From contig NZ_NPKI01000043.1 of the NCBI RefSeq assembly GCF_002284565.1, positions 1 to 64,000 of the forward strand: DNA of 64,000 nt, given 5' to 3'. Numbering within the stretch: the first letter of the stretch is position 1; each line of letters starts with the position of its first letter. Shown here in pieces: positions 559-28,753 of the stretch. Source of the stretch: Mesorhizobium mediterraneum. GTDB lineage: Bacteria > Pseudomonadota > Alphaproteobacteria > Rhizobiales > Rhizobiaceae. The translations under genes and the position numbers were made by a program. Under the pieces are notes generated by a model. It ran no database searches and was not told where the DNA came from. It saw only the letters and a list, made by a program, of their open reading frames with translations.

Positions 559-1260
559 TCATGGCCGCTCCTCCGTTGGCGCGCTGGCCTTCTCGGGCAC
601 CTGGAAAACCCAGTAGTGAGCGTTCTCCTCGGCGAGGTATCTGGCGTCGTTTAGACGCTGCACCAGCACAAGAACGCCCGCATCCTGCAGACGCTGCACC
701 TCGCTGTCAAAGCCCGTGGCCTCCACATAGCTCGTGCGGGTGCTCGCGATGACAAATCCCTTTGGGCGCGTGACGCGAGCCAGTTCGCGCAGCCCCTGAG
801 GTCGAACATGCCTGAGCACGAAGACGCCGCAGCAGACCGTGATGTCATAGCTCGCGCTGGCGTGGTCGGAAGGGGGGCCGTTAAGGTCAACATTGCTTCG
901 GACATGGCGGTAGACGCGGGTTTGTCTGGCCTTTTCGGCCATCTCCTCGAAGAGGTCTATCCCGTCGATCAACTGGAAGCCTAGGCGTTTCAGCTGCAAG
1001 CCGACGAGGCCCGTTCCGCAGCCAGCGTCAAGGATTGTAATGACTGCTCGCTCCTTGGCAAAATAGGCCGTCTGGGTGGCAGCCGCCAGTTCCGCTACGA
1101 CGGTCGGCCCGCAGTACCCCATTCGGCCGAGATCGAGATCATAGGTACCGGCCCCATCGCGATAGGACTTGGATAAATAACCGGCATTCGTCTCGAATGA
1201 ATGGGAAGCCTTCTGTCGTGCGGTTTGGTCACGCGCCGATTGCTGATCGGGGGCTTTCAT
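559..1260 (-). CDS. class I SAM-dependent methyltransferase (copy 1)
   Basis: A 233-residue cytoplasmic methyltransferase. Motif I is LDAGCGTGLVG (about residue 100), followed by the acidic end of strand 2 (IDGIDLFEEM). The later Rossmann strands are DITVCCGVFVL and ARVTRPKGFVIAS. The ATG at 1260 is preceded by AAGGAGA at good spacing. It resembles small-molecule methyltransferases of the WBSCR27-like type, but the substrate cannot be told. It is a tandem paralogue of the gene at 2213-2887, with matching sequence also beyond the stop codon, so the two arose by local duplication. All three methyltransferase genes at this end point the same way and may share transcription. Confidence 0.85.
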   Translation of the reverse strand: MKAPDQQSARDQTARQKASHSFETNAGYLSKSYRDGAGTYDLDLGRMGYCGPTVVAELAAATQTAYFAKERAVITILDAGCGTGLVGLQLKRLGFQLIDGIDLFEEMAEKARQTRVYRHVRSNVDLNGPPSDHASASYDITVCCGVFVLRHVRPQGLRELARVTRPKGFVIASTRTSYVEATGFDSEVQRLQDAGVLVLVQRLNDARYLAEENAHYWVFQVPEKASAPTEERP

Positions 1261-2212: not shown

Positions 2213-2887
2213 TTATGGCGCAATCCGCAAAACCCAGTAGTGCGCGTACTCGTCCGCGATGTATCTGCCATCAGCTAGACATTGGGCCGGCATGACGACG
2301 CCCCCACGCTGAAGACGCCGCAGCTCGTCTTCAAAGGACGTGGCCTTCAGATACCGCCTGCTAGTGCTTGCAATAACGAATCCGTTCGGGCGCGTGACGC
2401 GAGCCAGCTCGCGTAGCCCATCCGGCCGGACTTGCCCGAGCCCGAACACGCCGCAGCAGACCGTAATGTCATAGCTCGCGGTGGGGTATTGGGACAGCGC
2501 CCCGTTAAGATCGACGTCGACTTGGATATTGCGGTAGACGCCGGTTCGCCGCGCGTTTCCGGCCATCTCTTCCGTAAGATCGAACCCGTCAATCAACTGG
2601 AAGCCAAAGCGTGAAAGTTGCACGCCAACGAGGCCTGTTCCGCAGCCTGCGTCCAGGACTGTGATGGCTCCTCGCTCGCTCGCGAGATAGGCAGTCTGCA
2701 CAGCACCCGCCAGTTCCGACACGATCATCGGTGCGGAGTACCTCTCGCTCCCGACATCCAGATCGTACGAACTCGCCCATTCTCGATAGAATCGTGCCAA
2801 GCGACCGGCGTCGCCTTCGAGGTAGGAAATCTCGGCGCGTTTTCGCGCGGATTGGTCCAGTACCGTTTCTCGATCGGGACTGTTCAT
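2213..2887 (-). CDS. class I SAM-dependent methyltransferase (copy 2)
   Basis: A methyltransferase of about 224 residues with motif I LDAGCGTGLVGVQL, strand 2 end LIDGFDLTEEM, strand 4 DITVCCGVFGL and strand 5 LARVTRPNGFVIAS. The ATG at 2887 was chosen over the upstream one at 2941 because GGAGGAA lies just before it and the alignment with copy 1 begins there. It is clearly paralogous to the gene at 559-1260 along its whole length. The C-terminal YAHYWVLRIAP matches AHYWVFQVPE in copy 1. Substrate unknown. Confidence 0.85.
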   Translation of the reverse strand: MNSPDRETVLDQSARKRAEISYLEGDAGRLARFYREWASSYDLDVGSERYSAPMIVSELAGAVQTAYLASERGAITVLDAGCGTGLVGVQLSRFGFQLIDGFDLTEEMAGNARRTGVYRNIQVDVDLNGALSQYPTASYDITVCCGVFGLGQVRPDGLRELARVTRPNGFVIASTSRRYLKATSFEDELRRLQRGGVVMPAQCLADGRYIADEYAHYWVLRIAP

Positions 2888-3059
2888 GACAGTTCCTCCG
2901 TGCAGGGTTGATGGCATTTGGCGCAGCCGTGGCCGAGACATTTAGTTGCCCGTTGTCATTGCAGAGCCATGGCTGTCGGACCATGTGCCCCAGATAATCA
3001 CGTCTTGGTTCAGGGACTCGGTAAGACGTGGCACATACGCTTTTCGAAGTCGGAGACCA

Positions 3060-3830
3060 CTATCGAAGATCAGCCGACGAAAAGGTCCCGGATAATAGGC
3101 TAGTTCGGGAGTAAACGGAGATATGACGTTTGCTCCCTTCGGTGAACGCACCTCCCGCCCAATCTCCCCAACGTTCTACGAGCTTCAGCCCTACCAGCTC
3201 GGCCATAGTATCGAGTTCTTGATGATAAACATAACGGGCACGATGTGGTAAACGTCTGACCGATGTACCAGAAAACCAGAGGAGGCTTGAAACCAAGTTC
3301 TGGTTCAGGGGATCGTGCACATGCGCATTGAGAATCGTGTTTTCATGATCCACAAACAACGTAGTAATTTTCTGGCCGTTCACGAAACCTTCCAGGGCCG
3401 GCACATCAAGTTCGAGCACCAAACTTCCCTGATCATCCAGCACCTCCGCGACAGATCGGAAGCAAGCCAATTGAGCTTCGCGTGTGAAGAGGACCTTGAA
3501 CGTATTATAGACACAATATACCAGACGATAGCGTTGCTCCGATCTGAAATCGGCAATGTCGCCTTTCCAAGCCTTGACCATATCGGTGCGCTCTGCGAGA
3601 ACTTGCAGCATGCTATCCGAATTGTCGATACCTTCGACCCTGACGCCGCGCTCACTCAGCGGTACCGCCACGCGTCCGTCGCCAATACCAAGTTCAAGAG
3701 CATTTCTTCCGCTTGAATAGCGCTCAAGAAAATTCACAGTATCGAGTACTTCAGCCGTTTTACCATGCAATCGCACAAATTCTTCATAGTTCAGAGCCCA
3801 TTTCTGGTCGTAGACAAAGTCGTCATCCAT
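3060..3830 (-). CDS. class I SAM-dependent methyltransferase (copy 3, divergent)
   Basis: About 256 residues. Motif I is ALELGIGDGRVAVPL (near residue 45), motif II VEGIDNSDSM and motif III/IV VYCVYNTFKVLFT, followed by the strand-5 region LVLELDVPALEGF. The ATG at 3830 has AGGAGAA upstream. It is only distantly related to the other two methyltransferases here and resembles methyltransferase-25 or UbiG-like small-molecule enzymes. It is the first of the three genes in transcription order, so the promoter is probably between 3831 and about 3990. Substrate unknown. Confidence 0.85.
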   Translation of the reverse strand: MDDDFVYDQKWALNYEEFVRLHGKTAEVLDTVNFLERYSSGRNALELGIGDGRVAVPLSERGVRVEGIDNSDSMLQVLAERTDMVKAWKGDIADFRSEQRYRLVYCVYNTFKVLFTREAQLACFRSVAEVLDDQGSLVLELDVPALEGFVNGQKITTLFVDHENTILNAHVHDPLNQNLVSSLLWFSGTSVRRLPHRARYVYHQELDTMAELVGLKLVERWGDWAGGAFTEGSKRHISVYSRTSLLSGTFSSADLR

Positions 3831-4079
3831 CACGGATTCTCCTGTCACTCTGCTAACTTATTTTCAAGTCGGCCCATCACTGTTCTTGGCCACTATCGCA
3901 AAGAAGTAATAGCGAAAGTCGTGCCAACTCCGCTAGAAAAGTCTCAGAAAAATGTTCTACATGTTTTTTAACGACTTACATCGTGATTCGGCGGGAACCA
4001 AGTCGAGCAGCCCCGGGTCGCTCATGCGACAAACCCGACAGGAATGTCGGGTGCCCGACATCCCGAATTGCAAAAGCGA

Positions 4080-5014: not shown

Positions 5015-5995
5015 TCACTTCCAGACGTGGTTTGCGACACGAAGGAAATTTTCTCCCATTATCCCCCTCACGTCTCTGTCCGAGTATCCGCGCATACTCA
5101 GAGTGTCGGCGATTTGCGGAAATGCTTCTGGGTCCATGAACCCGAGATTTGGCCCATTTGGATATTGCGAACTCGGCCAATAAACCGTGTTCCATGAGAG
5201 AACCAGGTCTTTGCAGTCTGGAAAGTAATCCAGCCCAATACCAACGTGTTTGGGGCCAACCAAATCCGCTTTGTGATCAATGTGTCTGACCAAGGCTTCA
5301 ACGCTGGCGTCACCCGTTCCCAAAAAGATACCTAGACCGGTTACACCGCTCACTCCGCCCTTTGCGGCGCAAGCTATTATCTGCTCATCAGAGATGTTAC
5401 GTTCATGACCGTAAACTGACTTGCAATTTGAGTGAGAGAATATCACGGGCTTTTCTGATATCTGAATTGCCTCCATCGAGGAGTTGTATGAAACGTGGGA
5501 ACAGTCGATCACCATTCCTATCCTGTTCATCTTCTCAACAATATTTCTGCCGAAATTGGTGAGGCCTTGGTCTTCGTCATGGCATCCGGATGCGGCTCCG
5601 TTGTTCCTATTGTATGTAAGAGTCATCTGCCGAACCCCAAGATCATAGTAGAGGCTCAACATCTCTAAGGAGCCATCGAGGGCACTCATCCCTTCAATGT
5701 CAAACACAATAGCTAGCTTGCGATCTGTCTTGGCCTGCCGGATATCCTTTTCACTTCGGACAATGATGCATTGGTGTGGGCGGGCTGCAACAGCCGCTCG
5801 GTAGACCGACAAATTCTTGATGCATTCGGACCACGGACTGACATCGGAACCGACATTGAGGGTCAACAATGTCACTCCAGAATCAATGTAGCGCTGCAGA
5901 TATGTTGGCTGGACAGCGTCGTCAAATATGATTCCCGAATGACTGTCCCATATCACGCCCCCGAAGCGCCGGCCTTCACCGCTCACAAGATGCAT
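5015..5995 (-). CDS. M19 (renal/membrane) dipeptidase-like protein A
   Basis: A 326-residue amidohydrolase-superfamily protein of peptidase family M19, which hydrolyses dipeptides, including some with a D-residue at the C-terminal side. Visible metal-site elements are WDSHSG (His19), FDIEGM (bridging Glu), SHSN (His) and GHERN (His), plus the catalytic-Asp region GIGLDY. The Asp of the usual HxD motif is Gly here (HSG). No signal peptide is seen, so it is probably cytoplasmic. It lies just downstream of a collapsed alanine-dehydrogenase-like gene whose promoter remains at 6341-6422. It is distinct from the closely similar pair at 7315 and 25426. Confidence 0.85.
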   Translation of the reverse strand: MHLVSGEGRRFGGVIWDSHSGIIFDDAVQPTYLQRYIDSGVTLLTLNVGSDVSPWSECIKNLSVYRAAVAARPHQCIIVRSEKDIRQAKTDRKLAIVFDIEGMSALDGSLEMLSLYYDLGVRQMTLTYNRNNGAASGCHDEDQGLTNFGRNIVEKMNRIGMVIDCSHVSYNSSMEAIQISEKPVIFSHSNCKSVYGHERNISDEQIIACAAKGGVSGVTGLGIFLGTGDASVEALVRHIDHKADLVGPKHVGIGLDYFPDCKDLVLSWNTVYWPSSQYPNGPNLGFMDPEAFPQIADTLSMRGYSDRDVRGIMGENFLRVANHVWK

Positions 5996-6425
5996 CCCTG
6001 CATCATGGTGCAGCGCTGCTCGACAGGCACATTATTGCAAGACCTTCGAGAAACCAATCCTGATGCTTCGAGCCCGCTAGCTGAAGTCCAAAAGCCGATC
6101 AACCGCACCCGATCAGGCTTTGCAACCCCGACCAGCTCCGCCTGATATTGGGCGCTTACCGGCGTGCCCTTCACTACTCCAAACCGGGGTTCCTTATGCC
6201 AAATCCGGGGTCCGATTACGCGGTCATTGAAATACTGGAAATTGTTGCCCATTTTTAAATTCCCAGGGTTTACATGGGGCGCGACATCGCTCCACGGTCG
6301 TCTGCATTTGTACGGCGGCTTTCGGCAGGTGGGCGCCATCAGATCTCTACTCCATCCTCATATGATCATCAAGTTATGTTATGTGAAGGTCTATTTTTAA
6401 AAGTGTCATGAATGTGTATAGATTG
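5996..6425 (-). repeat. collapsed copy: promoter region joined to 3' end of an alanine dehydrogenase-like gene
   Basis: Read on the minus strand, 6422-6341 matches 17561-17642 closely, including the shared string ACATAACATAACTTGAT and GAGGATGGAGTAGAGAT. Soon after (about 6290-6240) comes sequence matching the last codons of the alanine-dehydrogenase-like gene at 18140-19372, with shared AAAATGGGCAACAAT. Then follows the intergenic stretch matching 19420-19622, and then the dipeptidase gene. The whole coding body between promoter and 3' end is missing, so this is an internal deletion in a duplicated cassette. An extension of the dipeptidase frame passes through here without a convincing start. 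Confidence 0.75.
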
Positions 6426-6674
6426 GCACAACCGGTAACATGAATTACGTTTACAATTGTCGTGGACCATGGCCGAGGCCATGATGTTCTTCTGCTTGAG
6501 GATCGTCATGGCTTCACTTCAGGGCCTCGGGCCGCTTGTTTTCCAGCTGGCCTGAGACCCTGAACTTCCTCCAGATTTGGGTAGAGTCCGTCGATAAAAG
6601 GAGACAGACGATGCGACCCTCGCGGTTGACGGAGAGCACATATCGAGATGCTGAGTAGCAGGAGGCCGGCGCAA

Positions 6675-6815
6675 AGACGGTTGATGTTTGCCGCAAGCAT
6701 GCGACCTTCTACTAGTTCAAGGCCAAGTTCGGGGGATGGACGTGTCCGACGCCCGTGGACCTGAAGGCTCTGGAAGACGAGAACGCCCGGCTGGAGAAGC
6801 TCCCGGTCTCTCGCA
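6675..6815 (+). pseudogene. IS3-family OrfA fragment
   Basis: Plus-strand pieces VCRKHATFY, FKAKFGGMDVSDA and then, one frame over, LKALEDENARLEKL match the leucine-zipper part of IS3-family OrfA proteins. It has a stop and a frame change and ends abruptly. No OrfB was recognised downstream. Confidence 0.6.
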
Positions 6816-7059: not shown

Positions 7060-7290
7060 CGAATGGAAACAGAGCTTGGAATTCAGCGAAGCTTTGTCGA
7101 ACTCTGCCTAGGCTCGTTTGCTAGCTCGGCAAGTGCATCATATCTCCGATCCCCGGACAACACATCTTTGAAGCTTCGGATGGTATCAGCCCCAGAGCCA
7201 ATCGTAATAGGCTCCCGGTTGCTTTGTTCATCACGGGCCGGAGGCTATTTGCTCCGACCAAAGATATATTTTCTGCGATAAAGTCTCCGG
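7060..7290 (-). pseudogene. remnant of FAD amino-acid oxidoreductase gene
   Basis: The plus-strand text around 7168-7200 (CATCTTTGAAGCTTCGGATG) closely matches 24354-24373 inside the intact oxidoreductase gene at 23993-25288. On the minus strand, decayed pieces read SLLRLALG and FAEFQALFP, matching LLRLGLG and FAEFRALFP of the intact protein. Only about 75 codons survive. It directly follows dipeptidase gene B, just as the intact oxidoreductase gene follows the third dipeptidase gene. Confidence 0.7.
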
Positions 7291-7314
7291 CAGCGGCAGC
7301 CGAATTCCAGCGCG

Positions 7315-8319
7315 CTATTCCCAGTTCATCGCCGCTACCCTCATGAAATTGGCTCCGAGGATACCGCTAACGACCTCGTTCGAGTAGCCACGAGCCGACA
7401 AGGCTGCGGTGAGTTTTGGGAATTCTTCAATGTCGATGAACCCTAGGTCGGATCCACTTGGATAATGTTCCGGCGGCCAGTAATCTTTGGCCTTCTCAAA
7501 CCGAGATGCCAACGCGTCCGTGATTTCTGCGAAGTCGGTTCCAATGCCCACGTGTTGCGGGCCAACCAGCTGACAAAGATAATCGATATGACGCACGAGA
7601 AGGTCGAGGTCCGACGACTTATTGTCTCCTGCTTTTGCCAGGTAGATTCGAATTCCTGTGACACCAATCACACCGCCTGTACTGGCACAGGCAATGGCTT
7701 GTTCATCCCAGATGTTCCGCGGGTGGTCATGCAGCACCCGGCTGTTTGCGTGAGTAATGACAATCGGCTTGGAAGAGGCTTCAGCCATGTCGATCGACAT
7801 CTTGGCGCTACAATGAGATCCGTCCACAAGCATGCCTACACGGTTCATCTCTCTGATAACATCCCGACCAAAGGGAGTTAGCCCTGTGTTGTGGCCGTGG
7901 CAGCCACCTCCTCCCTCGTTGTCTTTATTGTAGACAAAGCTGATTTGACGCACGCCTAACCGATGGTAAACCTCAACAAGATCCGTTGTCCCGTTTAGCG
8001 CGGACACGCCCTCAATATCCATGGACACTGCAAGCTTCCCGTCTCGTTTGGCGGAGAGAACGTCTCCAACGTTGGACACGGGGATGTATTTGTCACTGTT
8101 TTCGCCGAGCCAACGCCGATAGGCGCCGATCACCGGAAATGCCTGTTGCCAAGGTAACACGTCGTAACCAACATTGGTGCTAACATATGTAAACCCAGCC
8201 TTCCGGATGCGTTCCAAAGAGCTCACGTCTAGGGGTACCTGCGGGTCAATCCCGCAATGTGCATCCCAAATGATACTGTTTTGGAATAGGTCATCTATGT
8301 TCAACCGGCTTACATCCAT
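7315..8319 (-). CDS. M19 dipeptidase-like protein B
   Basis: A 334-residue family M19 dipeptidase. The start at 8319 (MDVSRLNIDDLF) is supported by GGAAGGAGTG upstream and by the identical start of its paralogue; the frame stays open upstream but that part is not conserved. Metal-site elements are WDAHCG (the normal HxD Asp is Gly), MDIEGVSAL, THANS, DHPRNIWDEQ and GIGTDF. It is about 80 percent similar by eye to the broken gene at 25426-26422 and much less similar to protein A. It is probably cytoplasmic, and its former partner oxidoreductase survives only as a remnant just downstream. Confidence 0.85.
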   Translation of the reverse strand: MDVSRLNIDDLFQNSIIWDAHCGIDPQVPLDVSSLERIRKAGFTYVSTNVGYDVLPWQQAFPVIGAYRRWLGENSDKYIPVSNVGDVLSAKRDGKLAVSMDIEGVSALNGTTDLVEVYHRLGVRQISFVYNKDNEGGGGCHGHNTGLTPFGRDVIREMNRVGMLVDGSHCSAKMSIDMAEASSKPIVITHANSRVLHDHPRNIWDEQAIACASTGGVIGVTGIRIYLAKAGDNKSSDLDLLVRHIDYLCQLVGPQHVGIGTDFAEITDALASRFEKAKDYWPPEHYPSGSDLGFIDIEEFPKLTAALSARGYSNEVVSGILGANFMRVAAMNWE

Positions 8320-8475
8320 CGAATTCACTCCTTCCGCTAATTGGCGCCCCTTCCAAATTGGGGCCGGATCTAGCTTAAACGATTGATTTTGCGCAGGATT
8401 CGGTTGTCTATCCAACCCTGCCACCGCCTCTCGCGAGCCACACCCGCCATGACCGAAGATATGTTGCTGCCGCTC

Positions 8476-16509: not shown

Positions 16510-16519
16510 GATCCCCTGC

Positions 16520-16771: not shown

Positions 16772-17554
16772 ATGCTTCGATCAACGCGGAACCTCGTGAC
16801 CCTAGCTCGATAAATTACTTTAGGTCCGGTGGGCAGCATTTGGCCTGACAATGCGCGGGTCGGCCGTATCGTACAGCAGCTCGGCAACGACGCGGGGGGC
16901 TTGGCCTTGATGATCCATTGAACATCAGATATGCCTCGGTCACTTTGAACGTGCATCCTCCACAACATCGCGAGCTGTTTTTATTTCTGCGGATGAGGGG
17001 CGAGGCCATTGCCCCGCGCAAGATGGCGAGTGCGGGGAACTGACACCGCAGCGAAAGGGCCCATTACATGGGATAATCGCGGGAGCGGTGCCCCTATTGT
17101 GTGCTGAAATCCGGCTAACTGTTGCGGCGAGTTCCTGCTATTCTAGGTGATGCGCGCGATATCCGGTTTACTTACACCCGACCGGGACCACTCTCGTGTT
17201 CCCGTCTCCTGCCAGGCACCCTCTTCGGGCCGATGGCGTAATCGGCCCCACTTCCCTAACTAACCGCCTGTGAACACCATTCTACCCACCGTCCAAGATT
17301 GGAGGTCGGCAAGGACTCTCGAAACAAGGCCGGACGGGAAACCCTTCTACCAACCTTCTCGCCTAGCCCGGACTCCCAGCCCAAGTACCCCACAGGCAAA
17401 AAAGCTCGTGCTCCGCGAGCTGGTAAGCGTAGTGTCGTCGTAGGGTAAAACCACCAACACCGACACTCGGCCTCGGCCCAATGTGTCCCTAGCCGTCGCA
17501 ACGGCGACATAATCCACGCCAATTGTCAATGAAATTCATATTAACGTTTCTCTA
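16772..17554. other. no recognised gene
   Basis: About 780 bases with only short unsupported frames on either strand. No IS ends or RNA gene could be recognised. Confidence 0.35.
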
Positions 17555-17645
17555 TAAATGCATACACTTTCATGACACTTTAGCAAATTGACCTTAACAT
17601 AACATAACTTGATACTCATCTGAGGATGGAGTAGAGATTTGATGG
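17555..17645 (+). promoter_or_regulatory. duplicated upstream region of alanine dehydrogenase-like gene
   Basis: This AT-rich stretch is nearly identical to the reverse complement of 6341-6422. It contains a -35-like TTGACC (17589-17594) and, about 16 bases on, a -10-like TTGATACT. Conservation in both cassette copies, although the gene behind one was deleted, suggests a promoter or control region. It lies about 500 bases before the gene start, so a long leader or a lost gene between is possible. Confidence 0.45.
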
Positions 17646-18139
17646 TCCCCCACCTCGAAAGAGCCGTAAGCTGTAGCTTGTGTTCCAGTAAACATAGAGC
17701 AAACGCAAAATTGACTGTGGAGAAGAGATTATGGACAGCGGACGAATGATTGCCTCGGAGCTTCGAAGGTACGCAATCGGAGTTTCCGTTCAGTTTTCTT
17801 TGGTCCCCTCAAGAGAGCGTGTTTCCTGGGTGGCGCGAGGAAACTCGTCGTGGGAGCTAGGAAAACCTCTAATCCTCTCTAGGAGCAGCCCGCGGCTCGA
17901 GCGACAACTCGCGGACCGAGATTAATTCGTATCGGTGACCCCGTTGTCCCTGCTTCTTGCTCCGCCGCGGCTCGGCCTATCGTCTGATACTAAGAACCGA
18001 CCCTGCGTCAAGGCGACGCCCGCGGGCCAGACCGCGCGCACAAAGTGGCACACCAAAACTCGGCGGCCACACTCGAGCGGCATAGTCACGGCAGCGGATT
18101 GGAGTGCAGCGTGACCGAAGACTGCAAGGGGAGTTTTCA

Positions 18140-19372
18140 ATGATGAAGATCGGTGTTTTGAAGGAAATCAAAGAAGACGAGCGGCGTGTCGCACTCCAGC
18201 CGATCCAGGCGCAAGCTCTTTCGCGCCTCGGTCACGACATCTATGTCGAAATCGGTGCCGGGGAAGGGGCTGGATTCTCGGATGCGGATTATCTGGCATG
18301 CGGAGGAAAGGTTGCGGCGAAAGATGAGGTCTTGGCCCGGGCGCGGCTCCTCCTCAAGGTGAAGGCACCGCTGCGCTCAGAATATTCTGACTATGCTCCG
18401 CATCACATCCTCTTCACGTATCTGCATTTTGATGAGAACATTGATCCTCGGGATATCTCTGAACTCATCAGTAGAGGGTTTCTCGGGATTGCTTACGAGT
18501 GGGTGGGAAAAGGTGGCCAGTATCCATTGCTTGAGCCTATGAGCCGACTGACAGGTTATCTCTTCGCCCAGCGGGCGTTGGAGTTGTGCTCAAAGGAAAA
18601 AGGAGTGTTCTGCCCGCGAAATGAGAACCTTCTCCCCGGAGGGCAGGCCCTGATCATCGGATGCGGCAATATCGGTCTGTCCGCATTCAAATACTTGTCG
18701 GACCTCGGGGTTGCCTTGACCGTTGTCGCTCGAGGCCAGGAGGATTTCAATTGCAAAGCCAACGCGCGCTTCGAAACCGTGGGCGTCGACTACATCGGCG
18801 CAACCGGCACGAAACTGATCGTCATGAATAACAAGGATCCTTCACGCACTCAGGGCACCATTGCGGCGGCACTGCAGGAGATGGACATCGTCCTCAATTG
18901 TGCGGTGCGTCGCTCCGATCTTCCGAAGCGGAGAATGGAGTACCTGATCGACAGAGGCATGGTTAAAGCCATGCAGAGAGGCAGCATTTTGTGCGACTGT
19001 ACTGCGTGTGATCGCGATTTGGTCGAAACCTGTATTTCTTCTGCTTCGCTCTACCACTCGTATTTCGAAGAGAACGTCGTGCATTACAACTGCGATCATA
19101 TTCCGTCAATGGTGGCTAACACCGCGACCCGGCTGCTCACAGCGGGAACTTTCCCTTACATTCGATACATCGCCAGTCTCGAATCCTTGCAGGCCATCAC
19201 TGAACATGAAAGCCTGCGTAACGGAGTCTGTTGCTACGGTGGTCACCTGACTCACGCGCTGTCGGCGGAGAAGAAAGGCTTGCCGTATCGGCCTCTGAGC
19301 AATGTTGTTGAAGCGATGTCCGGCCATGTAGGCGTTAAGAATATTCAAAATGGGCAACAATATACGGTATGA
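18140..19372 (+). CDS. alanine dehydrogenase/transhydrogenase-family dehydrogenase
   Basis: A 410-residue protein of the AlaDH/PNT superfamily. The N-terminal catalytic domain has KEIKEDERRVALQP, LLLKVKAPL and FTYLHFDEN, matching the Arg, Lys and His of alanine dehydrogenase. The Rossmann NAD site is IIGCGNIGLSAFKYLSDLG (about residue 172). CDCTACDRDL holds the Asp that corresponds to the catalytic one. The ATG at 18140 follows AAGGGGAG. It could be an alanine dehydrogenase or a relative such as an opine-type or saccharopine-type enzyme; it is about 40 residues longer than usual AlaDH. In this cassette it was once followed by a dipeptidase gene. Confidence 0.8.
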   Translation: MMKIGVLKEIKEDERRVALQPIQAQALSRLGHDIYVEIGAGEGAGFSDADYLACGGKVAAKDEVLARARLLLKVKAPLRSEYSDYAPHHILFTYLHFDENIDPRDISELISRGFLGIAYEWVGKGGQYPLLEPMSRLTGYLFAQRALELCSKEKGVFCPRNENLLPGGQALIIGCGNIGLSAFKYLSDLGVALTVVARGQEDFNCKANARFETVGVDYIGATGTKLIVMNNKDPSRTQGTIAAALQEMDIVLNCAVRRSDLPKRRMEYLIDRGMVKAMQRGSILCDCTACDRDLVETCISSASLYHSYFEENVVHYNCDHIPSMVANTATRLLTAGTFPYIRYIASLESLQAITEHESLRNGVCCYGGHLTHALSAEKKGLPYRPLSNVVEAMSGHVGVKNIQNGQQYTV

Positions 19373-19732
19373 CAATGAGTGCGTATTCGGCCCCCGCATT
19401 CCGCGCAAAAGGGGCTCTGGTATGGGGTGGTGAAGGGCACACGGTGAGCGCCGCTAATACGGGCGGAGCTGGTCGGGGTTGCACAGCCTGATTGGGCGCG
19501 GATGATTGGCTTTTGGAGTTCAGCTTTGAGAGCGGATTTGATGCGCCTGGATTGGCTTCTGACGATCTCGCAATGACGTGTCTGCCGACCAACGGTACGC
19601 ACAATGCAGGGGAGGCATCTTGTGAACGGAGAAGGCCCGCGCTTTGAGGGCGTGATACGGGACAGTCATTCGGGAATCATATTTTTTGACGATGCTGGCG
19701 ACCCAACATATCTGCAGCGTCGTCTTCGGTGA
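19373..19732 (+). pseudogene. truncated dipeptidase A copy with its upstream spacer
   Basis: From about 19400 the sequence parallels the reverse complement of 6220-5990, the spacer before dipeptidase gene A. From 19605 to about 19732 it matches the first 40 codons of that gene: TCATTCGGGAATCATATTT and CCAACATATCTGCAGCG occur in both. Small insertions break the frame, and similarity ends near 19725. This is the 5' stub of a second dipeptidase A gene behind the alanine-dehydrogenase-like gene. Confidence 0.75.
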
Positions 19733-19980: not shown

Positions 19981-20784
19981 TCAGCACGGTCCTCGGTCGG
20001 CCGGCATAGAGGAGCCGCACCGATGGAAATCCCATAGCACAATAACCATTGCCGGGATGAGCGCCGCGGCGATGCAGAAGACGATGCCGTCCTTGTTCTC
20101 CTTGACCATGCCGCCCCAGTCGGCGTCCGGCGGCTGCACGCCAAGGCCGAGGAAGGACAAGGTCGACAGGAACAGCACGGCATAGATGAAGCGCAGGCCG
20201 AGTTCCGAGACCAGCGGCGACAGCGCGTTGGGCAGGATCTCGCGGAAGATGATCCAGGCGCTGCCTTCGCCGCGCAGCTTGGCGGCTTCGACATAGTCCA
20301 TGACGTTGATGTCGACGGCGACCGCGCGCGACAGGCGGTAGACCCGGGTCGAATCGAGAATGCCCATCACCAGGATCAGCGTCACCAGGTTCGTCGGCAG
20401 CACCGAAAGCACGACCAGGCCCACGATCAGCGTCGGGATCGACATCAGGAGATCGATGAGGCGCGACAGGATGGTGTCGAACCAGCCGCCGAACACCGCC
20501 GCCGAGAAACCGAGAATGGCGCCGAGCGAGAAGGACAGCGCCGTAGCAAGCACGGCGATGAACAGCGTGATGCGGGCGCCGTAGATCATGCGTGACAGCA
20601 GATCGCGGCCGAGATTGTCGGTGCCCAGAAAGTGCGCCGCCGACATCGGTTCCCAGACGTCGCCGACGATCTCGGCATTGTCGTGCGGTGAAATCCACGG
20701 TGCGAAGATCGCCGCCAGCACGAACAGCGCGGTCAGCACCAGTCCGATCAAGGCGGGAATGGGGATGCGTCTTATGTCAAGCAT
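19981..20784 (-). CDS. dipeptide/oligopeptide ABC permease DppC-like, C-terminally altered
   Basis: An inner-membrane permease of the peptide/nickel family. The N-terminal helix is LIGLVLTALFVLAAIFAPWI, followed by HFLGTDNLGRDLLSRMIYGA and the EAA loop EAAKLRGEGSAWIIFREILP. The final transmembrane segment begins (AAALIPAMVIVLW) but the usual ending is replaced by FHRCGSSMPADRGPC, so the gene was cut near 20030. No DppD/DppF ATPase gene follows, although one normally does. It starts 9 bases after dppB ends. Confidence 0.8.
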   Translation of the reverse strand: MLDIRRIPIPALIGLVLTALFVLAAIFAPWISPHDNAEIVGDVWEPMSAAHFLGTDNLGRDLLSRMIYGARITLFIAVLATALSFSLGAILGFSAAVFGGWFDTILSRLIDLLMSIPTLIVGLVVLSVLPTNLVTLILVMGILDSTRVYRLSRAVAVDINVMDYVEAAKLRGEGSAWIIFREILPNALSPLVSELGLRFIYAVLFLSTLSFLGLGVQPPDADWGGMVKENKDGIVFCIAAALIPAMVIVLWDFHRCGSSMPADRGPC

Positions 20785-20793
20785 GCCCGCCCC

Positions 20794-21741
20794 TCACTTT
20801 GGATGTCTGAGACGCGGATTGGCGATGATCGCCGCTATGTCCGCGATGATGTTGAGGCTGATGTAGACGGCCGCGAAGATCAGGCCGACCGCCTGCACGA
20901 CAGGCACGTCGCGCTTGGTGACGTGGTCGACCAGATATTGCCCCATGCCGGGATAGACGAAGATCACCTCGACCACGACGACGCCGACGATGAGATAGGC
21001 GAGGTTGAGCATGACGACGTTGATGATCGGCGCGATGGCGTTCGGAAAGGCGTGTCTGCGGATGACCGCGAAGGCTGAAAGCCCCTTGAGCTCCGCGGTC
21101 TCGACATAGGCCGACTGCATGACGTTGAGGATCGCCGCGCGCGTCATGCGCATCATGTGGGCAAGCACGACCAGCGTCAGTGCGGTCGCCGGCAAGGCGA
21201 TGGCCTGCATGCGCTCGCCAAAGGGCATGCCGTCATAGACGGTCGAGATGGCGGGGAAGATCTGCCATTTCACGGCGAAGAAATAGACCAGGAGATAGCC
21301 GATGAAGAACTCGGGGAAGGAGGTCGAGGCCAGCGCCAGTCCGGAGATCAGCTTGTCCACCCAGCCATTGCGGTAGCGCACCGCGATCAGGCCGAGGATG
21401 ATCGCCAGCGGCACCGCGACGACCGCCGCCCAGAAGGCGAGGAACAGTGTGTTCCACAGCCGGCCCTTGATCGAGGTCGCGATATCCTGGCCGCTCGACA
21501 TGGGGGTGCCCAGGTCGCCGGTCAGCCAGTGGCAATACCTGACATACGCCGGGTCGTTCAGCCCGAGCTGCTCACGCAAATTGGCAAGCGACTCCGGTGT
21601 CGCCGATTGTCCGAGAATGGCTTGCGCGACGTCGGCGGTCAGAATCTGGGTGCCGGCGAAGATCAGGACCGAAATGGCCAAAAGCAAGATGATGCCCAGC
21701 GCAACGCGCTGGGCGATAAGCTTCACGATTGAAGATGACAT
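20794..21741 (-). CDS. dipeptide/oligopeptide ABC permease DppB-like
   Basis: A 315-residue permease with six expected membrane segments, first AQRVALGIILLLAISVLIFA. The family patterns LREQLGLNDPAYVRYCHWL and YVETAELKGLSAFAVIRRHA (EAA-type loop contacting the ATPase) are present. Full length and apparently intact. It lies between the binding-protein gene and dppC, in the usual order for a peptide import operon. Confidence 0.9.
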   Translation of the reverse strand: MSSSIVKLIAQRVALGIILLLAISVLIFAGTQILTADVAQAILGQSATPESLANLREQLGLNDPAYVRYCHWLTGDLGTPMSSGQDIATSIKGRLWNTLFLAFWAAVVAVPLAIILGLIAVRYRNGWVDKLISGLALASTSFPEFFIGYLLVYFFAVKWQIFPAISTVYDGMPFGERMQAIALPATALTLVVLAHMMRMTRAAILNVMQSAYVETAELKGLSAFAVIRRHAFPNAIAPIINVVMLNLAYLIVGVVVVEVIFVYPGMGQYLVDHVTKRDVPVVQAVGLIFAAVYISLNIIADIAAIIANPRLRHPK

Positions 21742-21757
21742 GAGCGCGGGGCGTGTC

Positions 21758-23342
21758 TCAGATCTGCAGCCAGCACTTGGAAAGTGCGTAGCCCCCCATC
21801 ATTTCCTGGTTGCCGTCCTCATACCAGCCGCCAACCTGCGGTCCAGTGGCGTCGATGAAGTCGTTGAACATCGGGACGATGGCGCCGCCTTCGTCACGGA
21901 CGATTTGGCCCATGTCGGCATAGAGCTTCTTGCGCTTGTCGACATCGAGTTCGCCGCGCGCCTGGAACAGCATCTTGTCGAACTTCTCGTTGAAGAAGCG
22001 GGTATCATTCCACTGGGCCTTGGAATAGTACGCAGTGGAATACATCTGGTCCTGAGTTGGACGACCGCCCCAGTAGGACGCAGAAAAGGGTTGCTTGTTC
22101 CACACTTCGGACCAGTAGCCGTCGCCGGGTTCGCGTTTGATCTCAAGGGTAATGCCAGCCTTGGCCGCGCTCTGCTGGTAAAGCTGGGCGGCGTCGACGG
22201 CACCCGGGAAGGCGACGTCGGAGGTGCGAAGGAGCACCGATCCCGAGTGCCCGGACTTCTTGTAGTGGAAAGCTGCCTTGTCGGGATCGAACGTGCGCTG
22301 CTCCATCTCCGTGAAGAGTGGATATGACTTGTTGATCGGCGTGTCGTTGCCGACGGAGCCGTAGCCCTTCAGGATCTTCTGTACGAGCTCCTCGCGGTCG
22401 ATGGCGTATTTCAGCGCGAGCTGCAGGTCGTTGTTGTCGAAAGGGGCAGTGTTGCAATGGGCGAGGAACAAGTAGTGGCCATGGCCACTAACGTTGCGGA
22501 TCGTGATCCCTGGGACACGCTTGATAAGTTCCACCACCTTGGGTTCGACCCGGTTGATCATGTGGACCTGGCCGCTCTGCAGCGCAGACATGCGGGCGGT
22601 GGTATCGTTAATGACGATGATCTCAATCTGCTCCGCGAAGCCGCGGTCGTTGCGCCAGTAATTGGCGAATTTCTCGCCGCCGAGGCGGACGCCGCCTTCA
22701 TTGACGGTGACCTTGTAAGGACCGGTGCCGATGCCTTCGGTCGGATTATCCTTGCCGCCATTGGGCTGGATCATTAGGTGGTAGTCGTCCATCAGGAAGG
22801 GAAGGTCGGCATTGGCTTCCTTGAGTGTGAAGACCACGTCCTGGCCGTCGACGGCAATCTTGTCGATGCCCTGCATGATGCCGAGCGCGCCAGACTTGGA
22901 ATTGGCGTCGGAATGGCGCTCCATTGTGGCGAGTACGTCCGTCGGAGTCATTTCCTTGCCGTTATGGAACTGGACACCCTTGCGGATTTTGAAGGTCCAG
23001 GTCTTCGCGTCCTTTGACGCGCCCCATTCCTCGGCGAGCGCGGGCTGGAGTTCGCGCTTGGCGCCGATCTGCACGAGCTGCTCGCCCCATTGGCGGCCAA
23101 AGAAATAGGCGACCTGGCTCTCGAAGATCGCAGGATCAAGACTGTCGGTGGCCGCCCCACCCTGCATGCCGGCCTTAAGCACGCCGCCCATGACCGGGCC
23201 CTTCGGCGCGCGCCGCAGCCGCTAGCATGGTGTTCGCGAAGGCGGCGCCAACACCGATCGCGGCCGCACGACCGAAAAACTCACGCCGAGACAATTTGCC
23301 TGTCGCGACGCTTTCACTGAGAAAACGGATTTCTTCATTCAT
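21758..23342 (-). pseudogene. peptide ABC transporter substrate-binding protein, frameshifted after signal peptide
   Basis: The mature part (21758-23191) is a full family-5 solute-binding protein: YKVTVNEGGVRLGGEKFANY, LQLALKYAIDREELVQKIL and DKRKKLYADMGQIVRDEGG are typical. Its export signal is in another frame: MNEEIRFLSESVATGKLSRR begins at 23342 and continues EFFGRAAAIGVGAAFANTML, a Tat-type signal (SRREFF) ending AAAARAEG. The two parts join if one base is removed near 23196 (GAAGGGCCCGGTCATGG). As written, the exported protein cannot be made. Confidence 0.8.
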
Positions 23343-23394
23343 CGTAATTCCCCATCGTGTGGGCCTTCATGGCTGTTGCTTGGGTTTGGCGCAC

Positions 23395-23450
23395 CTTACA
23401 ATGCCTGTCCAACAACGAATTGATATAGCGTGATGAGAAAATGATATCGG
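23395..23450 (-). promoter_or_regulatory. shared upstream element, copy A (before peptide transporter operon)
   Basis: The element TGTCCAACAACGAATTGATATAGCGTGATGA on the plus strand recurs at 26470-26520 with a few changes, there before a dipeptidase gene. It lies 55-100 bases upstream of the binding-protein start. A LysR remnant lies immediately beyond. A binding site for the nearby LysR regulator is a reasonable guess. Confidence 0.5.
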
Positions 23451-23514
23451 CGCCGAACGGTGTGACAAGCGTTCGGCGGTGGGGCGCTTTGTTTCTAGTT
23501 CTGCGATCCATTGC

Positions 23515-23632
23515 CCTTAAGGACGCGGGTAGAAAGGTCCGAAGAGCTGGCGCTGAATTGTCTTTTGGCCCTGCAGCAAACGACGGAAGCGGTTCCGGAT
23601 TCCGCTGCGATCTGATTTGGTACATGGCAACG
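23515..23632 (-). pseudogene. 3' remnant of a LysR-type regulator gene
   Basis: The minus strand reads NPEPLPSFAAGPKDNSAPAL and then RTFLPASL. It parallels NPEPFHIFAAWRKDNTAPVL at the C-terminus of the LysR protein encoded at 27312-28226. The match is also clear at the DNA level (AATCCGGAACC, AAAAGACAAT). About 35 codons remain, placed upstream of the transporter operon in the same orientation. Confidence 0.65.
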
Positions 23633-23639
23633 GGGTTAC

Positions 23640-23992
23640 CTGGCTCGCCTAGTGACGTCGACGCGCCGGACCGTCGACTGCATTTGTTAATTCCCGTGAT
23701 CAGCGGGGTTACGCGACGAAAAACCCTCCACGAAATCCGCCTGCCAAAAGCTCAGCATTGCACAACGCGCCGGGCGCAGAGTCAATTGAGCTTCACGATC
23801 ATAGGACAACACATCTGCCAAGCGACCCTCGATACCTCATCGGCCTCCAGTGCGACTAAAATCCGCGTCGATTCTATCTCCAACTACCGTCGCGCGACTA
23901 ATGCCGAATGTCCGAACACTCGAGGCGGCTGCCTGCTAGCCGAGTTTTAGGCCACACTTGGTGGGCAGATGATGTGCCTACGCGCTTGTTCC
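23640..23992. other. no recognised gene
   Basis: A short plus frame crosses this stretch but has no family features, and it is antisense to the LysR remnant at its start. Nothing else was seen. Confidence 0.3.
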
Positions 23993-25288
23993 TCAGGCCG
24001 CCTTGATCAATTCAAAATCACCGTCAGCAAACCTGGAGCACTTGAACCTCGTTAAGTCCAAAGATGGTGTTCCGTCGATAATCCATTGACTGACTTGCTT
24101 GCCCACGATCGGTCCGAGCGCGAAGCCATGACCGCTAAAACCACAAGCTGCTAAAACGTTCCAATTGCCTGGCAAGCGGTCGATAACTGGTATCAAGTCT
24201 GGCGTAAGATCGATCCGCCCAGCCCAGCTTTCTACTAGGACCAAGTCGCTAATATGGGGAAAAAGGGCCCGGAACTCGGCGAAATTTTGCTTCACTTTTC
24301 TGAGATTCGTTGCTGGCTCCGGAAGCGGCTTGTATTTCCCAATGCCAGGCAGGAGATCTTTGAAGCTTCTGATCGTATCTTGTCCCAGACCCAAACGTAG
24401 AAGGCCTTGGTTCTGTCGAAGTGCAGGAAGGAAGTAACGGAGATTCGTGAACGCTTCGAGGGTTAGATCGTAGTTGGTTCCGGCGTTCCGATAGCCGTTG
24501 CCGATGATGAAGGAGCCGTCCGGCCTGGGTCGATAGGCAGTCGTCGGCGCCCACATAGCTATCTCGGTAAAGGGCTTGGTAGTCGAAGTTCGACCTACCG
24601 ATGATCTGATGATCTGAATTGGAAGATTGTAGCCTAGTTTGGTCAGAAACTTCCTCGAGCCGATCCCGCTAGCTACAACCACTTTGTCACAATACTGCTC
24701 ACCCCTCTCAGTTCGAATGCCAGACACTCTGCCGTTCACTCTGATAAAGCCAGTGACGGCCTGATCGCTGAAGAGCTCCGCCCCCGCCGCCTGCGCCGCG
24801 CGGGCGAATGTGCGCGTCGATGCCTCGGGATCACCGTGTCCGTCATCGGGTGTGTAGAGCGCGCATCGCCAGTTGCCGGAAAGTTCGGGCAGCTTTTGCG
24901 TCAGTCTCTTGCTATCCAGGATTTCTGAAGTGAGGTTGTGTTTCTGAGCGTCCAGGTAGCTTGCTTCTACTAAGGCTTCGTCTTCGGTTGTTTCTGCGGG
25001 CATGAGGATGCCCGATTTCACGCGTCGCGTTGAATCAAACCCGAATTCTTCCGTGATTTCGTCCCAAAGTAACGAGGCTTCCGCGGCGAGAGGGATTTCC
25101 GCTGGGTGTCGTCCTTGTTTGCGGATGAATCCCCAAGCCCGGCTAGATTGTTCCCCGGCAATCGGCCCGCGGTCAAAAACCGCCACACGTATGCCCCGTC
25201 GTGCCAAGTAGAAGGCTGTTGAACAGCCGACGATCCCGGCGCCTATTATGGCCACATCGTAGCTTTTGTCGGATGCATTCTTCGCCAT
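23993..25288 (-). CDS. FAD-dependent amino-acid oxidoreductase (DAO family)
   Basis: A 431-residue flavoprotein of the D-amino-acid dehydrogenase/glycine oxidase group. The dinucleotide site is DVAIIGAGIVGCSTAFYLAR (residues about 9-28), followed by VAVFDRGPIAGEQSSRAWG. The C-terminal FAD-contact region is NVLAACGFSGHGFALGPIVG. The ATG at 25288 is the natural start. It lies about 135 bases downstream of the third dipeptidase gene, in the same direction, and a remnant of the same gene follows dipeptidase gene B. It may deaminate an amino acid released by the dipeptidase; the exact substrate is unknown. Confidence 0.85.
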   Translation of the reverse strand: MAKNASDKSYDVAIIGAGIVGCSTAFYLARRGIRVAVFDRGPIAGEQSSRAWGFIRKQGRHPAEIPLAAEASLLWDEITEEFGFDSTRRVKSGILMPAETTEDEALVEASYLDAQKHNLTSEILDSKRLTQKLPELSGNWRCALYTPDDGHGDPEASTRTFARAAQAAGAELFSDQAVTGFIRVNGRVSGIRTERGEQYCDKVVVASGIGSRKFLTKLGYNLPIQIIRSSVGRTSTTKPFTEIAMWAPTTAYRPRPDGSFIIGNGYRNAGTNYDLTLEAFTNLRYFLPALRQNQGLLRLGLGQDTIRSFKDLLPGIGKYKPLPEPATNLRKVKQNFAEFRALFPHISDLVLVESWAGRIDLTPDLIPVIDRLPGNWNVLAACGFSGHGFALGPIVGKQVSQWIIDGTPSLDLTRFKCSRFADGDFELIKAA

Positions 25289-25425
25289 TTGAGATCGGAG
25301 CCCCTTAGTGTATCTCAGTCGTTGCCCGCGATCAGATCGTCGAGTGTCTGGGAGAAATTCATTGTTCCGGCCGCCGATAGTTTACCCCGATGAAGGTCCA
25401 GGCGGCGGCCCCTGGTTGCGAAGTG

Positions 25426-26422
25426 CTACTCCCAGTTCATCGCAGCGACGCGCATGAAATTGGCACCGAGGATTCCGCTGATGTCCTTGTTGGTGTAGCC
25501 TCGAGCTGACAGGGCGGCAGTGATTTTCGGGAAAACTTCGATGTCGACGAAGCCAATGTCCGATCCACTTAATGTGCCGGCGGCCAGTAATCTTTGGCGT
25601 CTCGAACCGGGTTTCCAAGGCCTTCGTGATTTCTGCGAAATCGGTTCCGATGCCTACATGTTCGGGCCCGACCAGCTCGCAATAATAGTCAATATTGCGC
25701 ACAAGAAGATCTAGGTCAGACGTACTGTCGCCTACTTTTGCCAAGAATAGCCGAATTCCAGTAATCCCGATTACGCCGCCCGTGTTTGCGCAAGCAATCG
25801 CCTGTTCATCCCAGATATTTCGTGGATGATCGTGTAGTACCCGGCTGTTTGAGTGACTAATGATAATCGGCTTCGATGACGTTTCGGCCATGTCGATCGA
25901 CATTCTCGCGCCGCAATGCGTCCCATCTATAAGCATGCCAACCCGGTTCATCTCTTTGATCACCGCTCGACCGAAGTGAGTAATTCCGGTGTTTTCACCG
26001 TGGCAGCCGCCGCCGCCGGCATTGTCTTTGTTGTAGACAAAGCTGATTTGGCGCACTCCCAATCGGTGGTAGGTTTCGACGAGATCCGTCGTGCCGTTTA
26101 GCGCGGACACGCCTTCGATATCCATGGAGACCGCAAGCTTCCCGTCTCGTTTGGCGGCGAGGACGTCTGCGATGCTAGAGACGAGGGTGTACTTGTCAGT
26201 GTTCTCGCTCAGGAAGCGGCGATAGCCGGCGATCACCGGAAATGTCTCTTGCCATGGCAACACGTCGTAACCCACGTTGGTGCTGACATATGTGAACCCT
26301 GCCTTCCGAATACGTTCGAGCGAGTTGACGTCGATCGGCACCTGCGGGTCCATTCCGCAATGTGCATCCCAAACGATACTGTTTTGAAAGAGTTCATCTA
26401 CGCTCAGCCGGCTTACATCCAT
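25426..26422 (-). pseudogene. M19 dipeptidase-like protein, third copy, frameshifted at C-terminus
   Basis: Close paralogue of the gene at 7315-8319: MDVSRLSVDELFQNSIVWDA, the HCG variant of the metal motif, MDIEGVSAL, SHSNS, DHPRNIWDEQ and GIGTDF. After RFETPK the frame breaks. One base is missing near 25600 and about four near 25575, and the original end (DIGFVDIEVFP ... NFMRVAAMNWE) is found in another frame, ending at 25426. The last ~55 residues are therefore lost or replaced. As written, the frame runs on to 25382. Confidence 0.8.
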
Positions 26423-26465
26423 CGAAATCACGCCTTTTGGAAATTCGGATGGCGCAATTTCACGA

Positions 26466-26522
26466 GCGTTATGAGGCTTGTCCAACAGCGAATTGAGATA
26501 GCGTGATGACAAACTGAGATCA
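26466..26522 (-). promoter_or_regulatory. shared upstream element, copy B (before third dipeptidase gene)
   Basis: TGTCCAACAGCGAATTGAGATAGCGTGATGA differs from copy A (23395-23450) at only a few positions, and the similarity fades on both sides. It lies 45-100 bases upstream of the dipeptidase start, the same distance as copy A from its gene. This suggests a common operator or promoter for the transporter and the enzyme operon. Confidence 0.5.
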
Positions 26523-26581
26523 GTATTGAAGGGTCGGCAATTGGGCCCATTCGTATCCAGCCGTTTTGCACACCAAAGCAT

Positions 26582-26869
26582 CCGGTGCGCTTTTCAACCG
26601 CGGGCTGTCACGAACCTGGAGGATCAATATTGCGGGCGCGGTCTCGCAGCTTCAGGCCCACAGCGGGCGGGTCCCGGGGCATTGCCTAATGCGTGAGCCG
26701 AGGCCTTCCGGTAAGCAGATTTCGCTTATGAAATGTGATTAGCTTATCCCGAAAGCGCGAGAAGCACTGCACGTCCTCCTTTGTCTCCTCAAGGAGCTTT
26801 GCAGAACAGTTGCTAAGCATCGGTCTTACGCTCAAGCCTCAAAGCGGCCGTACCTAGAGCGCGTCCTGT
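26582..26869. other. gap without gene
   Basis: Nothing coding was recognised between the dipeptidase promoter element and the IS630 remnant. Confidence 0.35.
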
Positions 26870-27311
26870 TTAATCCGGTTCATATCCTGCGGCTTTGAAG
26901 TAGCCGGCACATTCGGCTGGGGTGAAGAGGTCGACGACCGCGCCGACCGCGTCCCACAACGCCTTGATGGTTCTCTCGGCCTTTGCTCGCAGCAGCGCCT
27001 TGAGTTTGGCGAAGGCGTTCTCAATCGGATTGAAGTCGGGACTGTAAGGCGGCGGGTAGAGCAGGCTCGCGCCTGCGGCCTCGATCGCGTCGCGCACGCC
27101 GGCGGCCTTGTGGGCGGGCAGGTTGTCCATGACGACCACCTCGCCCTCCGACAATGTCGGGACCAGCACCTGCTCGACATAGGCCAGGAACACGTTGGCG
27201 TTCATGGCGCCGTCGTAGATGAAGGGCGCAGTCATGCCCGTCAGCCGCAGAGCTCCCGGATTCAGCACGCGCCAGCATCCTTTGATGCCAGGCTGCCTTA
27301 CTGAGATTTGT
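26870..27311 (-). pseudogene. IS630-family transposase C-terminal half
   Basis: The open frame 26870-27325 gives the C-terminal DDE part of an IS630-type transposase: LTGMTAPFIYDGAMNANVFL, VVVMDNLPAHKAAGVRDAIE (second Asp region) and YSPDFNPIENAFAKLKALLR (final Glu region). The N-terminal half is absent, and the frame's first codons run into the LysR 3' end. The fragment lies between the LysR gene and the dipeptidase operon it may once have adjoined. Confidence 0.75.
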
Positions 27312-28226: not shown

Positions 28227-28259
28227 TGCATCAGACCGTACCAAAAAGTCGTTAGACAA

Positions 28260-28753
28260 GCATCATCTAGCATCGAAGTGATTATCAATCTACCAGCTTC
28301 GCAGTTCACGCGCGACCGAACGACATGCAGGAAAACGAAGCTGCCAAAAGCTACGAGAACCCAATATCTGAGTATATGATGGCTTTCGAATGGGCTGGGA
28401 CCTGATCGGTTCCTCTAAGATAAAGCCGCGTTTGCGCGACCGCTGTGGCGCCGACGGCGCGTGGCATTGGCTGAAGGCGCTCATGGTCAGTCAACCGTGC
28501 GTGTTCGGTCTTAAGGCGACAAGCAGGGTATGGCCTATGGCGCCCGTGTGCCCGATGAGGAGAGTCACAATGCGCTAAACAAGCTGACACAGTTAAGTCG
28601 GCCCGCGAATAGAAGTTACGGGGGCAGTGTCGGTATCGCGCGCATATATAAATATTACAATAGGTCAGTTTATGCGCCACCACGCCGACAGGCTGTGCGT
28701 TTTGGCGCGACAATCATGGCGCAAAGCGCACGAGCGCTTTACCCTCCAAAATC
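28260..28753. other. intergenic region without recognised gene
   Basis: Only short unsupported frames occur. The region marks a change from moderate GC on the left to the very GC-rich DUF1403 gene on the right. Confidence 0.35.

Follow-up and report, generated by a model that had tools for sequence, protein, structure and literature searches.

Complementary gene losses in two inverted copies of an alanine dehydrogenase-like and M19 dipeptidase segment on a Mesorhizobium mediterraneum plasmid

Two copies of one segment

Two segments of the window, the whole stretch of 64,000 nucleotides of Mesorhizobium mediterraneum DNA analysed here (contig NZ_NPKI01000043.1, referred to as C38), probably derive from a single segment, underwent reciprocal loss and were then kept by selection to one working copy of each gene. 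Copy A, on the minus strand, has no counterpart of about 1.64 kb that holds the body of an alanine dehydrogenase-like (AlaDH-like) gene, but retains the last codons of this gene. In copy B, on the plus strand, the AlaDH-like gene is retained and the dipeptidase is reduced to about 33 codons. The features of both copies are listed below.

5015..5995, minus: intact M19 dipeptidase M19b (RS33690) of copy A, RefSeq start GTG at 5986, Pfam 288 bits
6013..6232, minus: tip of an IS21-family element in copy A, ~220 bp with the 3' end of istB in reverse, assigned by similarity to known IS21
6233..6294, minus: what remains of the 3' end of AlaDH in copy A, together with the 3' flank, with an in-register stop TAA at 6272-6270
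6311..6466, minus: shared upstream segment of copy A, 80.5% to 17513-17668
17513..17668, plus: shared upstream segment of copy B, BLASTN match to copy A
18140..19372, plus: intact AlaDH-like gene of copy B, open frame with domain matches
19371..19600, plus: copy B counterpart of the IS21 terminal remnant, from aligned IS21 copies
19622..19719, plus: first ~33 dipeptidase codons from the GTG start in copy B, ending at a patchwork of plasmid pieces

BLASTN of positions 4001-8000 against 16501-21500 returned two aligned blocks: minus 6466-6311 of copy A with plus 17513-17668 of copy B (128/159, 80.5%, E 5e-34), and minus 6294-5892 with plus 19309-19719 (324/417, 77.7%, E 2e-84). This likeness is far beyond chance. 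The order upstream segment, AlaDH 3' end, spacer and start of the M19 dipeptidase gene is common to both copies, and between the two blocks lie 1.64 kb with the AlaDH-like gene in copy B versus 16 bp in copy A. Elsewhere in the same genome, 5015-6470 is matched only by three pieces of 32-45 bp, all in the IS21 part. Between the copies, the IS21 part has 0.257 substitutions per site, the tail 0.233, the upstream segment 0.184 and the dipeptidase 5' part 0.114.

The initial annotation had traced minus 5015-6422 and plus 17561-19732 to one cassette. The pairwise DNA alignment that it proposed bears this out, with similarity well beyond one short motif and a common IS21 junction, although the limits of copy B are 17513-19719. 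Its description of the first copy was confirmed, as about 1.64 kb with the dehydrogenase is gone, the tail is kept and M19b is open. In the second copy the dehydrogenase is intact as described, and the dipeptidase breaks off about 33 codons after its GTG start instead of after about 40. The finding is thus real and its main reading largely right, as an instance of known processes and not a new phenomenon.

The shared 156 bp had been taken for a promoter region. That it is shared stands, while its function as a promoter is unproven: sigma-70-like matches occur in copy B at 17572-17600 and 17588-17616 (two in 17450-18160 versus 0.5 expected), and the promoter scan gave no minus-strand site in copy A at 6311-6466. 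The segment had no match in the 145 other genomes of the genus. Just upstream of copy B, 17334-17441 is about 72% identical to other Mesorhizobium plasmids, one of them with an adjoining annotated transposase.

The spacer

What had been regarded as a plain spacer is, by similarity, a remnant of an IS21-family element, an identification new to this analysis. All five IS21 copies aligned start with TGTCAATGA, the counterparts being TTTCAATGA in copy A and TGACAATGA in copy B. The tip lies at the identical place in both copies, right after the AlaDH 3' flank, and the IS21 part stops in both about 27 bp short of the dipeptidase start codon. This double junction common to A and B is the best evidence for a single origin, as an IS21 tip at the same place implies that the junction was formed once, before the copies split.

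Identity of the spacer to known IS21 elements was 72-85% over the longer matches. A match to 5892-6470 was found in 62 of 146 genomes of the genus (61 besides its own) and in 40 of 394 genomes drawn from the family (39 besides its own), there often near contig ends. Among the matches listed, those of the other genus genomes all fell in query positions 232-461, about 6239-6010 (best four places or fewer per genome), and those of the family within 233-460 except for one match of 25 bases (best two places or fewer per genome). When copy B was used as query, 8 of 15 matching plasmid records had 'IS21-like element helper ATPase IstB' annotated under the match. Opposite-strand ORFs that read by eye as IstB and IstA adjoin one family match (L073), and istA and istB adjoin the spacer match in M. 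ciceri pMc1192 and Mesorhizobium sp. AR02. The spacer is like the IS21 family (istA/istB; M. ciceri pMc1192) in its terminal sequence and reversed istB 3' end, and unlike the pMc1192 element it consists of only about 220 bp, with no istA and no second end seen, so that it does not amount to a complete IS21 element.

A start codon of the dipeptidase taken from IS21 was considered and rejected, since positions 6016-5960 of copy A are no more IS21-like than shuffled sequence (1125 to 1572 of 2000 shuffles as good against the five IS21 copies). The M19b start region in copy A aligns with the start of the M. plurifarium dipeptidase.

The dehydrogenase and the dipeptidase

By its domains, the dehydrogenase of the window is an AlaDH-like member of the alanine dehydrogenase/PNT superfamily. 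Its product scores 109.7 bits with AlaDh_PNT_N (cut-off 30.4) and 82.3 bits with AlaDh_PNT_C (cut-off 23), and its best solved relatives are alanine dehydrogenases (E 2.9e-48). The motifs VKAP and YLH, which we take to have catalytic roles, are kept. With the alanine dehydrogenase equivalog TIGR00518 it reaches 188.2 bits, below the cut-off of 391.85, and the name 'alanine-dehydrogenase-like' given initially holds for the domains and not at the level of the equivalog.

The copy B protein has 422 residues, and the alignment with its relatives stops at residue 405-406; a net loss of two nucleotides near the end has extended the frame to a TGA at the IS21 tip. The tail of copy B is native, because the AlaDH genes of genomes G055 and G085 match it up to 19346 and 19351. 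The tail of copy A (6290-6270) reads GCG ATG TCG CGC CCC ATG TAA, which agrees in length and register with the G085 AlaDH end (...ACG ATT TCA CTT CCC ATG TAG). Compared with 5000 mononucleotide shuffles, its likeness to the copy B tail was clear (none scored as well), to the G085 end fair (26 as good) and to the SOD10 end weak (126 as good, at a different spot of the tail). Likeness to the M. plurifarium AlaDH end was absent (1696 of 5000 as good).

The peptidase, previously called 'dipeptidase A', is indeed a dipeptidase by its domain, and is assigned to family M19 (membrane/renal type) by a Pfam Peptidase_M19 score of 288 bits (cut-off 26) over residues 26-322. In strain R31 it is annotated as 'dipeptidase'. 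M19b is 72% identical to its M. plurifarium orthologue, is free of stops and matches solved members of M19, of which the best aligned from residue 57 on only. The metal motif of M19 is usually HxD. At this place the M19b translation has HSG, as does the M. plurifarium orthologue, which makes the predicted activity uncertain.

Gene order in related genomes

Orthologues of the AlaDH-like protein (85-89%) were found in three of the 145 other genus genomes (G038, G055 and G085), the others listed being at 31-39%; the holders are M. plurifarium STM8773, Mesorhizobium sp. SOD10 and a Mesorhizobium MAG. A relative in Methylobacterium indicum has 46% identity. Across the order, a search of 397 genomes with an E cut-off of 1e-60 returned the own genome only, in a draw that left out most Mesorhizobium and whose matches lacked the Methylobacterium relatives. 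M19b had an orthologue (72%) in one of the 145 genomes, G038, with the runner-up at 49%. SOD10 and G085 held no close relative of M19b, their best being at E 1.1e-24 and 3.5e-34 versus 7e-164 in G038.

An intact cassette, for which other Mesorhizobium genomes had been suggested as a source, was not encountered: the AlaDH-IS21-dipeptidase unit was found in 0 of 145. The sole genus genome searched with both orthologues, M. plurifarium STM8773, carries M19b, the methyltransferase genes MT2 and MT1, and AlaDH in this order on a single strand. These genes are orthologous to those of the window with 72-85% protein identity, but AlaDH stands last, whereas in the ancestor of A and B it would stand first, ahead of the dipeptidase. 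The AlaDH-dipeptidase order is therefore probably derived, with a junction marked by IS21. In SOD10, AlaDH lies upstream of an MT1 relative. Plasmid pMaq22A_2p of Methylobacterium aquaticum encodes an AlaDH-like protein 47% identical to that of the window, and resembles the window in having MmgE/PrpD, FAD oxidoreductase, ABC transporter and LysR genes within 13 kb. It differs in the class V aminotransferase next to the gene and in that no M19 dipeptidase is listed in the stretch. In the parts of the literature available to us, no account of an AlaDH-IS21-dipeptidase locus was found.

Neighbouring genes and further duplicated blocks

Among the genes nearby, several more are duplicated and some are broken:

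559..1260, minus: MT1 paralogue (75% DNA identity, 529-1165 versus 2153-2789; 58% protein identity to M. plurifarium MT1)
2213..2941, minus: SAM methyltransferase MT1, with methyltransferase domains, 78% to the M. plurifarium gene
3060..3848, minus: SAM methyltransferase MT2, downstream of M19b, with methyltransferase domains, 78% to the M. plurifarium gene
7065..8333, minus: second duplicated pair, an FAD-oxidase remnant (7065-7212) and an intact M19a, from BLASTN against block B
20041..28275, minus: block B, with two permeases, a substrate-binding protein, FAD oxidase, M19a and LysR, some of them broken

The second duplicated pair is 69% identical to 24258-24405 and 80% to 25425-26436, with M19a in one open frame. 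Outside the window, block C (C38 73115-91321, about 18 kb) is collinear with M. plurifarium contig C5 at 48.9-66.9 kb (88-91%). Within the window, block B (20.0-28.3 kb) repeats many genes of block C at 72-85%, and some pieces of them are present in block A (7.1-8.3 kb); the window at 20.0-28.3 kb is thus a partial, more diverged paralogue of block C.

The state of the copies differs between blocks. The substrate-binding protein is frameshifted in B and open in C, permease 1 is open in B and frameshifted in C, and permease 2 is open with a changed end in B and frameshifted in C. The FAD oxidase is a remnant in A, open in B and frameshifted in C, where the R31 annotation splits it into two genes, as expected. 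M19a is open in A and C and frameshifted in B, and both copies of LysR are open. Together with the AlaDH family (remnant in A, open in B) and the M19b family (open in A, fragment in B), all eight duplicated families tallied have at least one open copy, and no single block holds all eight. At the start of block C a CoA ligase and a regulator are frameshifted, with no second copy on the contig (E 1e-15), and the MmgE/PrpD gene of block C is broken, with a 51% paralogue in the window.

Genes close by also code for a GcvT-fused FAD oxidoreductase and for MmgE/PrpD, LysR and ABC-transporter proteins. Gene families such as those near AlaDH and M19b presumably point to the breakdown of a methylated amino compound, and this is what the nearby genes suggest. 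A gene of the MTTB family (trimethylamine methyltransferase) at 14506-15947 is present in two overlapping frames and is apparently frameshifted. Relatives of MT1 and MT2 (E up to 1e-40) occur in 40 and 36 of 146 Mesorhizobium genomes, the own genome included, and are far more widespread in the genus than the AlaDH orthologue.

Selection, decay and the origin of the copies

The initial annotation had left open whether the complementary state reflects decay or selection keeping both functions. For selection, the absence of frameshifts can be cited. The noncoding parts of A and B contain 14 gaps in 447 aligned bases, none a multiple of three. Assuming that these parts are neutral, that half of the changes fall on each branch and that the gaps are correctly placed, 18.6 frameshifts would be expected in codons 1-395 of the copy B AlaDH and 13.7 in that portion of the copy A M19b which the two copies do not share; none was observed in either gene, which favours selection on both genes. 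The dipeptidase 5' part is more conserved between the copies than IS21 (93/104 versus 183/234, Fisher p 0.015), which would fit a period in which both copies were functional. The upstream segment did not differ significantly from IS21 in this respect (p 0.19).

Pairwise dN/dS against M. plurifarium was 0.096 for M19b (with dS near saturation, about 2), 0.14 for AlaDH, 0.18 for MT2 and 0.35 for MT1; no ratio could be derived for the block B copies of the FAD oxidase and LysR, whose dS was saturated. As the closest relative of M19b stands at a dS of about 2, the constraint on this gene cannot be dated to the time after the split. AlaDH gave 0.25 against SOD10 and 0.26 against G085. On the window branch its ratio was 0.33, not significantly below 1 (bootstrap 0.15-2.0, 20 of 300 at least 1) and compatible with relaxed constraint. 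In a shuffle test of complementarity over the eight families (8 of 18 copies dead, LysR counted with both copies open; ALDH, the transporter ATPase, MT1, MT2, MmgE/PrpD and the frameshifted CoA ligase and regulator left out), 15% of shuffles left no family wholly dead, in a test that is blind to families now wholly deleted. With the block B substrate-binding protein counted as open (seven dead copies) this rose to 28%. Significance of the all-block complementarity by itself was thus not upheld. The proposal of selection on both functions is supported by the frameshift test, but not significantly by the branch ratio or the shuffle test.

In the sequence of events that we consider probable, the ancestral segment would have consisted of the upstream region, the AlaDH-like gene, the IS21 tip and the M19 dipeptidase. 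A rearrangement associated with IS21 would first have placed AlaDH ahead of the dipeptidase, and the gene order in M. plurifarium points to a dipeptidase-MT-MT-AlaDH run that was copied in tandem or rejoined. Either duplication of the unit or import of a diverged copy would then have given the plasmid a second, inverted unit. Copy A would have lost 1.64 kb including AlaDH, so that about 0.33 kb now separates the upstream segment from the dipeptidase, and the dipeptidase of copy B would have been truncated at 19719, the edge of a patchwork of pieces from other plasmids. Selection would then have retained a single functional copy of each gene, and the probable role of the genes is to take up and break down a methylated amino compound. 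To the right of copy B, 19718-19970 is composed of pieces present on other rhizobial plasmids (best 8 of 68 records); R. etli p42a bears no annotation over the first of these, at the dipeptidase stop, and a later piece falls within istB. Upstream of copy A, 6548-6910 belongs to a query stretch of which some part recurs on other plasmids, in 341 records, with a transposase annotation in one of the best 8 of 341 records. These two stretches are possible agents of the ending of the copies.

That the two copies are xenologues, imported with different plasmids on which the common IS21 junction was already present, is compatible with this sequence of events and, although somewhat unlikely, a real possibility. 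The noncoding distance between A and B (JC 0.18-0.26) is about the AlaDH dS to SOD10 or G085 (0.25), and importing seems to happen, as block C of the contig has 88-91% identity to M. plurifarium; on the other hand, no other genome or plasmid searched had the junction, the matches listed lying in the IS21 part apart from the one 25-base family match. Plain neutral decay, with complementary losses by chance and both survivors on their way out, seems unlikely to us. A single loss per copy has an even chance of being complementary, many neighbouring genes are broken, the wider pattern has P = 0.15 and the interval of the AlaDH branch ratio includes 1, but neither survivor has a frameshift where about 19 and 14 are expected.

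It is very unlikely that copy A never had AlaDH and that the gene was inserted in copy B between the upstream segment and IS21. The copy A tail is short, and weak or absent in comparison with SOD10 and M. plurifarium; it nevertheless matches copy B (0/5000 shuffles) and G085 (26/5000) with an in-register stop at its end, and the tail of copy B is native, as seen from G055 and G085 (up to 19346/19351). The inverted orientation had also raised the prospect of inversion of the 11 kb between the copies. A functional inversion switch of this kind is extremely improbable, as the longest exact match between A and B is 26 bp, at about 78% identity, and two assemblies are collinear.

Reciprocal loss after segmental duplication is a general concept. 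As in other such cases, A and B each lost a different gene and jointly hold the full set; unlike them, the losses fall inside a two-gene unit whose order probably arose at an IS21 remnant. The locus offers a readable case of how a junction at a mobile element, together with duplication and a different loss in each copy, can yield two half-units that are jointly complete.

The plasmid

Bases 1-96,218 of C38, the contig of the window, were compared with plasmid NZ_CP088152.1 (293,882 bp) of M. mediterraneum R31, without a single mismatch over the 96,218 bp, and the window is collinear between the two assemblies. NZ_CP088152.1 is a repABC plasmid of a strain from a chickpea nodule. It carries annotated VirC1, VirC2 and VirD1 genes (VirD1: Pfam, 127.7 bits) and a gene for a RolB/RolC-family protein (Pfam, 56.2 bits), all outside the window:

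11034-13029 and 17445-18119 of NZ_CP088152.1: VirC/VirD1 and RolB-family genes

VirC/VirD1 and RolB/RolC-family genes on one plasmid recall Ti/Ri plasmids. In a wider reading, a single pathway that takes up and degrades a methylated amino compound would be present in three partial, scattered copies (about 0.5-8.8 kb, 17.5-28.3 kb and 73-91 kb of the contig) that have decayed into mutual dependence; in view of the VirC/VirD1 and RolB-family genes, the compound could be opine-like. We regard this as quite doubtful, and the frameshifted single-copy CoA ligase and regulator of block C argue against it. According to the R31 genome announcement, the nod, nif and fix genes are apparently on a chromosomal island (PMC10586107), so that the symbiosis genes would lie elsewhere than on the repABC plasmid. 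The announcement also names CCBAU 01399 and USDA 3392 as M. mediterraneum strains with draft genomes, and describes the use of R31 as a commercial chickpea inoculant (PMC10586107). If confirmed by expression and deletion of the genes, the locus would point to a catabolic pathway, so far uncharacterised, that this inoculant carries on a plasmid.

An Rfam scan of the window gave no matches. Further along the window, one gene occurs three times, at 39441-41093, 48932-50578 and 51402-52981; the copies have diverged to 65-69% DNA identity, and R31 annotates two of them as MFS transporter. The copy at 51402-52981 looks broken, and a fourth copy is located at 113.4-114.9 kb of C38.
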